A model generated the notes under the pieces. It saw only the letters and a list, made by a program, of their open reading frames with translations. It did no database searches and was not told the origin of the DNA. 64,000 nt of DNA from Desulfovibrio mangrovi (GTDB taxonomy: Bacteria > Desulfobacterota > Desulfovibrionia > Desulfovibrionales > Desulfovibrionaceae): NCBI RefSeq assembly GCF_026230175.1, contig NZ_CP104208.1, forward strand, positions 124,001-188,000, in the 5' to 3' direction. Numbering within the stretch: position 1 is the stretch's first letter; each line of letters starts with the position of its first letter. This document shows positions 5,805 to 9,097 of this stretch, one piece after another. The translations under genes and the position numbers were made by a program.

Positions 5805-6293
5805 TCATTGCGCTTCAATCAGGGTGGTCAGTTCCTGCACGGCGGCTGCGACTGTCTGTAGCCGTACGGCATCGCGATTGCCGGAAAACACAAAGCGGCG
5901 CACGGCAAGGGCCTCGCCCGCACAGGCAGCCAGCCATACTGTGCCCACAGGCTTTTCCGGTGTGCCTCCGGAGGGGCCGGCAATGCCTGATACGGCAACG
6001 GCACAGTCCACGCCGAGCACGCGGGTTGCTCCGCGCACCATGGCCTCCACGGTTTCACCGCTCACGGCACCGTGGGTCACAAGGGTATCATGCGGCACAC
6101 CAAGCACCTGCTCCTTGATTTCGTTGGCATAGGCCACCACGCCGCCGGCAAACCAGCCTGAAGAACCGGAAACGTCGGTGAGTGCGGCGGCGATGAGGCC
6201 GCCCGTGCATGATTCGGCCGTGCCGAGCAGCATGCCCCGTTTTCTGAGCATATCCCCAAGATTGAGGATGGATGGGTGCAGGTCTTTCATCAT
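5805..6293 (-). CDS. pncC: Nicotinamide-nucleotide amidase, CinA C-terminal family
   Basis: A 162-residue stand-alone CinA C-terminal domain. The family hydrolyses nicotinamide mononucleotide to nicotinic acid mononucleotide and ammonia in NAD recycling. The diagnostic motif TAESCTGGLIAAALTDVSGS is at residues 25-44, with the catalytic Ser region, followed by GGVVAYANEIK and VAVSGIAGPSGGTPEKPVGTVW. The start at 6293 has AAGGAG nine bases upstream; a second ATG follows at once. The N-terminal MoCF-like domain found in full CinA is absent, as in E. coli PncC. It appears to be transcribed alone, divergent from the next gene. Confidence 0.93.
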   Translation of the reverse strand: MMKDLHPSILNLGDMLRKRGMLLGTAESCTGGLIAAALTDVSGSSGWFAGGVVAYANEIKEQVLGVPHDTLVTHGAVSGETVEAMVRGATRVLGVDCAVAVSGIAGPSGGTPEKPVGTVWLAACAGEALAVRRFVFSGNRDAVRLQTVAAAVQELTTLIEAQ

Positions 6294-6474: not shown

Positions 6475-7374
6475 ATGGTGAAGCAGGAATCTTTTACTTC
6501 CTTGCTGCATGACGAGGTCATGTCGGAGATGGCGGACAATTTTTTCAGTGCCCGCAAAGCCATTGATGACGAGATTGACCTGTTTGAAGCCAAGGAGGCG
6601 GACGTTGCGCTGGCCGGGCAGCGCGCCCTGTGCAGTTGTGCCTTGCTGTATGCCCTGTTGCAGGGAGAGGAGGGGGCGCAGGCCCTTTTCGATGCCATTG
6701 GGGTGGACGTTGCCTCTTATGGTTTGCACTTCAAGGTTCGCAATGTCGAGCCTTGCCTTTTTCTGCGTCTTCCGTGGGGCATTACCCGCAAGAGGCGCTT
6801 TGCCGGACTGCTGGTGCGTGTATACCAGCATGTCTACAGCGCTTTTGACCGGTATCTGAACGGCAGCGGCTATACCAGCTACCATGCCGTGCAGACGTAT
6901 GCCTTGCCCGAGACAAAGGGCTCTGGTCAGGAGAACGGTGCATCGTCCTTTGACAAGATGAGCGGCATGATGGGTAAGGTGCGCAGCCGTACCGTCGGCT
7001 GGAAACGATACATCGCATGGTGCGACGAGATTAATGCCCGCATAGAAGAAGTGAACCTGAACCAGCCGCCCTCGCAGGTGCTGGGGATGGCGCGCTCCAT
7101 GGATGTTGTCGGACTCGCGCAGGAGAAGGCTTCCGGCGGCGGTGTGGACGGCCTTGTGGCTTCCATGGACAGGACGCTCTGTCTGCGTCCCATTGCCTGC
7201 CATCTTGCCGGGGTAGGGTCGCTTCCCGCGTTGCCTGATCCGGAAGAAGTGGAATCCGCCATCAGACAATTTGCCATGTCCTTTTATACGCGGGAACATC
7301 ACGCCGTGGATAAAACCATTGCAGATCTGGAACGGGCGCTGGATTGCATGCTGAATCCCGATGCTTGTAGTTAA
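6475..7374 (+). CDS. Conserved-looking hypothetical protein
   Basis: A 299-residue soluble protein with no signal peptide or transmembrane segment and no recognised motif. The N-terminal half is helical and acidic (MSEMADNFFSARKAIDDEIDLFEAKEADVAL). It is followed by a small globular part with FLRLPWGITRKRRFAGLLVRV. A Gly/Ser-rich linker near residues 145-155 leads to a C-terminal helical part. Codon use matches the neighbours and a GAGGG site precedes the ATG at 6475, so it is very likely a real gene. No function can be assigned. The following gene starts 65 bases later on the same strand and may share its promoter. Confidence 0.75.
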   Translation: MVKQESFTSLLHDEVMSEMADNFFSARKAIDDEIDLFEAKEADVALAGQRALCSCALLYALLQGEEGAQALFDAIGVDVASYGLHFKVRNVEPCLFLRLPWGITRKRRFAGLLVRVYQHVYSAFDRYLNGSGYTSYHAVQTYALPETKGSGQENGASSFDKMSGMMGKVRSRTVGWKRYIAWCDEINARIEEVNLNQPPSQVLGMARSMDVVGLAQEKASGGGVDGLVASMDRTLCLRPIACHLAGVGSLPALPDPEEVESAIRQFAMSFYTREHHAVDKTIADLERALDCMLNPDACS

Positions 7375-7438
7375 CCCTACAGTCTTTTGCTAATCTGCCG
7401 ATATGATACGGAAGAACGCCAACACTCAGGAGACGGTC

Positions 7439-8617
7439 ATGTTTCTTCGCAATGCCTTACGCGGTCACGCCGTAGCCATATTGCTGAGTTCCGTATTGCT
7501 GTATCTCTTTGCCGCAGTTCTGCCTGCCGCGGCAGAACCGCCCATGAAGGTCATCTACGGATTCGACCGCGAATATCCGCCGTTCAGCTTTGAAGAGGCT
7601 GCAGGCAAGCCCGCGGGATTCGATGTGGATCTCATCCAGGCCGTATTGCAGGACGAGAATGTGCGGCTCATCATGCGTCCACTCACATGGGATCAGGTGC
7701 AGGTCGAGCTTTCCGCAGGCAATATTCAAGTCTCGTCGGGCATGGCCGTTACCAAGCAGCGACAGCTTCTTTACAAGTTTGCCGACAAGCCCAGCATGCC
7801 TCTGCAGATCAAGCTGTTCACCAAGCCTGCTGCGCGCGTGGGCAACGTGACCATGCTTCGAGGACAGACGGTGTCCGTTGAGAAAGGTTCATACCAGCAG
7901 CGCGTGCTGGAAGAGTTCGGCGGCCTGAACATCAAGCTTTACAAGAGCAAGACGGAAGCTCTCAAGGCGTTGTACAACGACGAGGTCGTTGCCTACGGCG
8001 GGCCTACCCAGACTGCCTACTATCTCATCGACCGCCTTAAACTGGGTACCATTACGGCTGTGGGGACGCCTTTGGTTGTTTCCGATACCTATTTTGCGGT
8101 CAACCGCGATCAGGACAAGCTGCTTGCCATGATCAACCGGGGCATGCTGCGTGTTATCCAGAGCGGTGAATATGACCGTATCTATCGCAAATGGTTCGTG
8201 CCCACCCTGTATCCTGAAGAATACTCCGCCCTGTATACGGCGGCGCGGAACGCGGCCATCAATGCCTATGCTCCGTATTCGCGTTACCCGGTCGGTGCAG
8301 CCGTGATGACCCGTTCCGGCAGGATCGTAACCGGCTGCAACGTGGAGAATGCGCTCATGAGCGAAACGCAGACCGCGCTGCGCACAGCCATATTGAAGGC
8401 TGTTTCCGAGGGGGAATACGAATTCCGCGCGGCGGTAGCCGTAGCTCCGGACGGGAGCGTGCAAGCTCCTTCCGCAGCGGACAGGCAGTTCCTCTTCGAG
8501 TTTGGCCGCGGGGTGCTGTGTGCCGTGCAGCCGGAGAAGGGCAGGGTTGAACTGAAGATGGTCTCGGAGCTCCTGCCGTATCCGTATGAAAACAGGCCCG
8601 AATCCTACCAGTATTAG
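7439..8617 (+). CDS. Secreted solute-binding protein family 3 fused to a zinc-less cytidine deaminase domain
   Basis: A 392-residue protein. The ATG at 7439 is chosen for its AGGAGA site five bases upstream. Residues 1-32 form a clear signal peptide ending AAAE. Residues 36-255 are a family 3 periplasmic binding domain: YGFDREYPPFSFEE, GFDVDLIQAVL, VSVEKGSYQQRVLEEF, and the usual ending GEYDRIYRKW. Residues 262-384 align without gaps over long stretches to cytidine deaminase: NAYAPYSRYPVGAAV, GCNVENA, LRTAILKAVSEG and a final ELLPYPY. The zinc cysteine is Thr312, the proton-shuttling Glu is Leu314, and the two PCxxC cysteines are Ser345 and Asp348. The ribose-contacting Asn and Glu of NVEN remain. 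It therefore cannot be a zinc deaminase; binding of nucleosides in the periplasm is inference. No transporter permease gene adjoins it. Confidence 0.88.
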   Translation: MFLRNALRGHAVAILLSSVLLYLFAAVLPAAAEPPMKVIYGFDREYPPFSFEEAAGKPAGFDVDLIQAVLQDENVRLIMRPLTWDQVQVELSAGNIQVSSGMAVTKQRQLLYKFADKPSMPLQIKLFTKPAARVGNVTMLRGQTVSVEKGSYQQRVLEEFGGLNIKLYKSKTEALKALYNDEVVAYGGPTQTAYYLIDRLKLGTITAVGTPLVVSDTYFAVNRDQDKLLAMINRGMLRVIQSGEYDRIYRKWFVPTLYPEEYSALYTAARNAAINAYAPYSRYPVGAAVMTRSGRIVTGCNVENALMSETQTALRTAILKAVSEGEYEFRAAVAVAPDGSVQAPSAADRQFLFEFGRGVLCAVQPEKGRVELKMVSELLPYPYENRPESYQY

Positions 8618-8674: not shown

Positions 8675-8746
8675 GCGTTACAGTTCCGCATGATAGTTGA
8701 TGGAGCGTTCGGATCGCCCCTGAAACGAGCCCACCGAGGAGCTGGT

Positions 8747-9097
8747 ATGCCCAACAGACGTAAGCGCAGCCGTGTGCGCGGGAGTTACGACGGTATTCTT
8801 GTCGTGCGTGGCAGGGAGTGGCCTGTGCAGACGAGGGATATTTCTCTCAAGGGGGCTCTCATTTCTGCTGCCGTATTGCCTCCGCTGCGTGAAGAGTGTC
8901 GACTCAGAATAGCCCTTGCCGATGCCATAGGGCTGGAGATTGAGGGCATTATTGTTCGTGTGGGAACGGATGACGCTGCCATGAACTTCACGGGTATGGA
9001 TGAAGAGTCCTATGCCCATCTTTCCACCATGGTGCGGCTGCGGATGCAGAACGCCGATATGCTGGACCGCGAGGAGCTTGCCGAACCGTTCGAGTAG
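8747..9097 (+). CDS. PilZ-domain protein
   Basis: A 116-residue single-domain protein. It begins MPNRRKRSRVRGSYDG, with the arginine-rich loop that in PilZ proteins grips cyclic di-GMP. It continues with QTRDISLKGALIS, matching the (D/N)xSxxG motif. The start at 8747 has GAGGAG a few bases upstream; more upstream ATG codons lack a site. Length and motif order fit a stand-alone PilZ receptor for cyclic di-GMP, acting by binding a partner protein. It sits between two terminators, so it is probably transcribed alone. Its partner cannot be read from the context. Confidence 0.82.
   Translation: MPNRRKRSRVRGSYDGILVVRGREWPVQTRDISLKGALISAAVLPPLREECRLRIALADAIGLEIEGIIVRVGTDDAAMNFTGMDEESYAHLSTMVRLRMQNADMLDREELAEPFE

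Follow-up and report, generated by a model that had tools for sequence, protein, structure and literature searches.

A probably exported family-3 binding protein fused to a zinc-free cytidine deaminase fold in Desulfovibrio mangrovi and related bacteria

Background

Family-3 solute-binding proteins that bind amino acids use an Arg to hold the carboxylate of the ligand and an Asp to hold the alpha-amino group. Domains of this type are also found in sensors such as BvgS. Solved members of the family include the binding proteins ArtJ (2q2a) and AncQR (4zv1), and the sensor domains of a histidine kinase (3h7m) and of RmcA (7ejg), where the domain serves in sensing and not in transport.

Deaminase folds without catalytic activity are known as well. 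The C-terminal domain of the E. coli cytidine deaminase (CDA) and ADAT3 are non-catalytic deaminase folds that act in assembly and are paired with an active deaminase. In ADAT2/3 it is likewise an inactive deaminase that is partnered with an active one. The tetrameric CDAs (TIGR01354 and NF004064; structures 1jtk, 1zab and 4f3w) are the described proteins closest to the domain treated here. In the part of PMC9897663 that deals with substrate contacts, those of tetrameric CDA include positions 24, 42, 44 and 48, with Asn42 and Glu44 among them (B. subtilis CDA numbering, used here for positions 24 to 89 of the CDA domain).

Here we describe a gene of Desulfovibrio mangrovi that joins these two known families in a single 392-residue protein. 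The gene lies in a stretch of 64,000 nucleotides, hereafter the window (NZ_CP104208.1, positions 124,001 to 188,000). Among open-licence PMC papers, searched by title and the start of the abstract, no description of a family-3/CDA fusion was found. A preliminary description made from the sequence of the window proposed a nucleoside- or pyrimidine-binding protein evolved from a dead enzyme. We give an about even chance to another reading, in which the product is an exported orphan binding protein and its zinc-free CDA fold an assembly or docking module.

Results

Architecture of the fusion protein

The gene is read from an ATG at 7439 to a stop codon at 8615-8617 (Table 1). Five bases separate the AGGAGA from this ATG, and an alternative in-frame ATG is present at 7403. 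A promoter and terminator scan found promoter-like sites no more frequently than in shuffled sequences. The genome (3.95 Mb, one contig) was found to contain a single copy with both domains. The hydropathy of the N-terminus peaks at 2.39 over a 19-residue span. The rest of the protein reaches only 1.17 over 19 residues and has no strongly hydrophobic stretch. A hydrophobic segment, judged by hydropathy, precedes the binding domain in 38 of the 39 fusion ORFs with a readable N-terminus. From hydropathy, the protein is probably exported and its N-terminus cleaved.

Table 1. Features of the fusion gene and its neighbours, in window positions
Feature	Position	Strand	Basis or remark
CinA C-terminal-type gene, neighbour only	5805..6272	-	Pfam 1.5e-55
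Uncharacterised gene (299 aa), 64 bases ahead of the fusion ATG	6475..7374	+	Without Pfam match
AGGAGA, probable ribosome-binding site for ATG 7439	7428..7433	+	Read from sequence
Gene for the 392-aa fusion protein	7439..8617	+	Single open frame
Signal-type N-terminus, residues 1-32, AAA end then EPP	7439..7534	+	Sequence, hydropathy
Family-3 solute-binding domain, about residues 36-256	7544..8206	+	Pfam SBP_bac_3, PDB relatives
Zinc-less cytidine deaminase domain, about residues 262-385	8222..8593	+	NF004064, model, Foldseek
NVEN motif, residues 301-304	8339..8350	+	Alignment
Thr312-Ala313-Leu314 replacing Cys53-Ala54-Glu55	8372..8380	+	Alignment; Thr312 directly precedes model helix 313-323
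Ser345 to Asp348 replacing Cys86..Cys89	8471..8482	+	Alignment; Ser345 directly precedes model helix 346-355
PilZ-domain gene downstream, neighbour only	8690..9097	+	Pfam 1.4e-10

The layout given in the preliminary description, a signal-type N-terminus followed by a family-3 binding domain and an in-frame CDA domain, is borne out by profile searches. The Pfam model SBP_bac_3 matches residues 39-253 (E 3.8e-28; 98.3 bits against a gathering score of 26.4). The NCBIfam model NF004064, cytidine deaminase, matches residues 262-385 (E 3.4e-27; 95.1 bits against a cut-off of 74). The CDA domain is also matched by dCMP_cyt_deam_1 of Pfam (residues 261-332, E 4.6e-9) and by TIGR01354, in this case with 87.3 bits (E 9.6e-25), under the cut-off of 113.65. 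A sequence search of the PDB retrieved the CDAs of mouse (1zab, 1.1e-22) and B. subtilis (1jtk, 1.8e-21). The NVEN motif and the YAPYS..VGAA core, reported earlier as retained, are both present in the sequence.

The earlier proposal of a CDA fold had been referred to structure prediction, and the fold is found in the AlphaFold2 model. The mean pLDDT is 67.9 for the whole protein and 75-94 per ten-residue block over residues 261-380; the first lobe of the binding domain is poorly predicted from an alignment of 9 sequences. Foldseek aligned the model to CDA structures with a TM score on the target of up to 0.92 (4f3w, 6kw6), and the rmsd of these best matches is 1.4-1.5 Å.

Lost zinc site and its replacement

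The alignments place Thr312, Leu314, Ser345 and Asp348 on Cys53, Glu55, Cys86 and Cys89, as the preliminary description had it. The loss of these four residues is general to the family. The check covered 41 distinct fused CDA domains residue by residue, including two with an incomplete binding domain (L029 and L045). Cys and His are absent from all three zinc positions (53, 86 and 89) in every one of them, and none has the catalytic Glu55 or any acid at position 55. The three Cys and the Glu are all present in 28 of 35 separate CDAs; in the other seven the local alignments stop before the second zinc motif. The fused domain thus lacks metal and catalytic residues, which supports its reading as a dead enzyme.

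The residues that stand at these positions follow a pattern. Position 53 is Ser or Thr in 36 of the 41 fusions and position 55 is Leu, Ile, Val or Met in 37. Position 86 is Ser or Thr in 28, all of which also have an acid at position 89 (residue 348); overall Asp or Glu is found there in 39 of the 41. Two helices of the model begin at residues 313 and 346, right after positions 53 and 86. Helices are known to be capped by a Ser or Thr just ahead of them together with an acid three residues later. As far as the model goes, the zinc would have been replaced structurally by helix-cap-like residues.

Distribution, phylogeny and selection

The fusion was found in all nine other genomes of the genus that were searched. 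These copies have 57-87% identity and no internal stops, and the one in G023 is split across two contigs. Among 297 genomes sampled from the class, 89 have a CDA-type match, which is fusion-type in 42 and not in 47. The fusion-type matches occur in 15 of the 53 genera and match the whole model with E 1.9e-37 or less. Score and frame length decided what counted as a fusion-type match, both in this sample and in one of 199 genomes from the family; in the family sample, one genome with a 217-aa frame (G641) counts as fusion-type by this sorting alone, and one that is fusion-type in the class sample (G192) was missed by the search. Across the phylum, again sampled with 297 genomes, fusion-type matches occurred only in D. 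mangrovi itself and in a genome of another class (G314); within the class of G314 the fusion-type was found in 1 of 63 genomes.

The fusion is also present in a Syntrophaceae MAG (L045), with the frame interrupted inside the binding domain. The broken frame may be an assembly error or decay.

In an unrooted tree a branch supported at 100/99 sets the 41 fused CDA domains apart, and the clade is recovered in 100% of 200 bootstrap trees. Because a single clade holds the domains without zinc, the loss of catalysis most likely predates the divergence of the known members.

The CDA domain is under purifying selection. The dN/dS of this part is 0.018-0.122 in eight of nine congeneric pairs, values that are rough with a dS of 0.9-2.3; the ninth pair is saturated. 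The binding domain gives 0.016-0.129 in the same eight pairs. A pair from different genera has a value of 0.315 for the CDA part. The possibility, raised in the preliminary description, that the fusion is a sequencing or assembly error or a recent pseudogene finds no place beside open frames, conservation and low dN/dS.

No second CDA was found in the D. mangrovi genome at E up to 1. On this ground a pairing with an active CDA inside the same cell, in the style of ADAT2/3, was rejected for this genome. Each genome with a match (89 in the class sample and 66 in the family sample) shows a single one at E up to 1e-8, in the class sample among at most 13 candidates scored per genome. The fusion and a separate CDA were never found in the same genome (42 against 47 of the 297; 46 against 20 of the 199). 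No genus is shared between the 15 genera with the fusion and the eight with a separate CDA (n=53), an exclusion that is not significant (P 0.055) in a test that treats genera as independent though they are not.

Substrate pocket

Conservation in the pocket was compared over 12 positions, made up of the substrate contacts listed in the relevant part of PMC9897663 with the zinc and neighbouring positions. These positions average 1.85 bits in the 41 fusions against 1.89 bits for the whole domain (permutation P 0.56). They average 3.54 bits against 1.94 overall in 30 separate CDAs, the five divergent sequences of the 35 being left out (0 of 20,000 permutations as high). Outside the pocket, the conservation profiles of fusions and separate CDAs correlate at 0.64.

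The Glu of the NxE motif (Glu44; Glu303 in the window protein) is the only side-chain contact to be retained, in 39 of 41 fusions. Asn42 is found in 27 of the 41, an aromatic residue (F or Y) at position 24 in three and Y or F at position 48 in two. Within the genus, all ten members have both Asn42 and Glu44, with the motif NVEN or NVET. The only two fusions without the NxE Glu (L131 and L132) come from one genus, g50.

Under cut-offs that we set ourselves, and in comparison with the 30 separate CDAs, ten residues are conserved in the fusions and not in the separate CDAs (261, 293, 328, 330, 358, 359, 360, 374, 377 and 382). Their conservation suggests a new contact surface. A role in the tetramer for motifs that are kept in the fusions is proposed in section 8 of PMC9897663.

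Family-3 binding domain

Amino-acid binders make up most of the closest solved structures to the binding domain, and sensor domains (3h7m, 7ejg) are among the others. Like ArtJ and AncQR, the fusion has the whole domain and retains the GM..T..R motif, with Arg108 in 19 of 20 fusions. Unlike them, it has no Asp at the position of the amine contact (189) in any of the 20, all of which have Pro, Ala or Met, so that the Arg and Asp pair of the amino-acid binders is incomplete. An acid at the adjoining position 190 occurs in 10 of the 20 fusions, and the amine contact may therefore survive in half of the family. As a guess, the ligand is probably a small acid, bound by its carboxylate and lacking the amine contact of the amino-acid binders.

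Second binding-protein ORFs in L125, L129, L131 and L133 were set aside as apparent shadow frames, as judged by composition and strand.

Gene neighbourhood

The fusion gene stands in the order CinA-type (-), 299-aa gene (+), fusion (+), PilZ (+) and RND pump genes (-). The 299-aa protein is mostly helical in a weak model (mean pLDDT 70.9, 4 sequences), for which no matching fold was found at E up to 0.001. This gene was rejected as a dedicated partner of the fusion, its family having matches in 105 of the 199 family genomes. In a genome of genus g43 (G077; L165, 5401-6717) the CinA-type and 299-aa-type genes are followed by the PilZ gene (Pfam 3.8e-9) with no fusion between them, and a second locus of this genus (L159) has the same block with no match to either fusion domain. 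The absence of the fusion from between the 299-aa-type and PilZ genes makes this block a clean presence/absence site and indicates that the fusion gene comes and goes as a unit.

Other surroundings are found elsewhere. The fusion follows fliP in G026, adjoins a MATE-family exporter in L125, L132 and L133, and adjoins a sigma-54 response regulator in L119 and L130, with other genes at the remaining loci. The scan of 25 neighbour proteins, drawn from the window and from 10 of the 20 context loci, recognised no ABC permease or ATPase and no nucleoside uptake gene. Five of the 25 lack a Pfam match and may include a partner that went unrecognised.

Discussion

The fused domain resembles the tetrameric CDAs in fold, length, order of motifs, the VGAA and the NxEN. 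It differs from them in the absent zinc ligands and catalytic Glu, in the relaxed pocket, where Glu44 alone is kept of the full set of contacts at 24, 42, 44 and 48, and in being joined to a binding domain that follows a signal-type N-terminus. A fold that is still under selection in the absence of metal and catalytic residues argues for reuse as a structural or docking part and not as an enzyme. The C-terminal domain of the E. coli CDA and ADAT3 are alike in that they too keep a deaminase fold without catalysis, with a known role in assembly. However, no other CDA is found in the D. mangrovi genome and the fusion protein is probably exported. The other half of the protein differs from the family-3 binding proteins by its extra C-terminal domain and by the lack of recognised importer genes among the scanned neighbours. 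It is similar to the sensor domains of 3h7m and 7ejg, but these belong to membrane signalling proteins, while here the dead CDA fold is the sole further domain.

A possible course of events is as follows. In a common ancestor, an orphan exported family-3 binding protein would have gained a CDA domain of the tetrameric type at its C-terminal end. Both zinc site and catalytic Glu would have disappeared before the known members diverged, and the helix starts that once held the zinc re-capped by Ser or Thr and by Asp or Glu. The CDA fold would have been kept as a non-catalytic module, which most likely brings the protein together into an oligomer, in the manner of CDAs, or anchors it to a partner; several binding domains could thereby work in concert. 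A small acid is the probable ligand of the binding domain, which would pass it to a membrane partner or signal through that partner. An arrangement of four binding domains around a dead-CDA tetramer, as an exported oligomerisation hub, is a tentative extension of this scheme that we think possible, with the balance against it.

The module might instead serve in docking only, without self-assembly, and tie the binding protein to a specific membrane receptor or transporter. Such a role would suit an orphan binding protein without recognised importer genes among its scanned neighbours and newly conserved sites that lie away from the listed pocket positions. The sensor domains among its solved relatives are in keeping with it too, although most of these relatives are amino-acid binders. 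No shared gene for a membrane partner was recognised at the scanned loci (MATE in three, a sigma-54 regulator in two), and we regard docking without self-assembly as rather doubtful, a little more so than the tetramer. Lower still stands the proposal of the preliminary description, a nucleoside or pyrimidine receptor. The dead site would here still bind a nucleoside outside the cytoplasm and thereby control either a partner or the binding domain itself. The retained CDA fold speaks for it, as do Glu44 in 39 of 41 fusions, Asn42 in 27 and the NVEN or NVET of all ten genus members, given that both residues are substrate contacts in the relevant part of PMC9897663. Conservation of the pocket at background level weakens this reading; in addition, the aromatic residues at 24 and 48 are kept in only three and two of the 41, the catalytic and zinc residues are absent from all, and the 25 scanned neighbours include no recognised gene for nucleoside uptake. 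The origin from a dead enzyme therefore stands, with no catalytic residue in any of the 41 domains, while nucleoside or pyrimidine binding by the domain appears unlikely. Since Glu44 is kept so widely and Asn42 throughout the genus, a small-molecule site of some kind may persist in the CDA fold.

The remaining explanations carry much less weight. The acid at residue 348 in 39 of the 41 fusions could be taken for part of another metal site or another chemistry in an enzyme that is still active. Since all 41 lack Cys and His at the three sites and an acid at position 55, and the pocket is relaxed, this is very improbable. Decay or accident, whether a recent pseudogene or a sequencing or assembly error, would account for the loss of all catalytic residues and for the one frame-broken MAG relative. 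It is hardly credible beside stop-free frames in the window and nine genomes of the genus, one clade that spans genera and dN/dS far below 1. A search for the same fusion in other genomes, suggested in the preliminary description, found it in all nine congeners searched and in 15 of the 53 genera of the class sample, and intact zinc ligands were found in none of the 41 fused domains.

Read as an assembly or docking module, the protein is a clear case of an enzyme fold retained to do something other than catalysis, probably in a different compartment of the cell. The sampled members form a single clade, there are intact relatives for comparison, and the structural replacement of the metal site is visible. 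The phenomenon is broader than a single gene and extends over a family in sulfate-reducing bacteria and a few relatives. The tetramer hub, if true, would represent a new type of multivalent receptor in the periplasm, with a deaminase fold adapted to that compartment by the exchange of its zinc site for helix caps.

The fusion also bears on annotation. Judged by its residues, the protein almost certainly cannot carry out the deamination step of pyrimidine salvage, a step with which annotation may credit such bacteria. Fusion proteins could be misnamed cytidine deaminase because they pass the NF004064 cut-off, which is exceeded by 16 of the 46 fusion-type matches in the 199-genome family sample and by the window protein as well.
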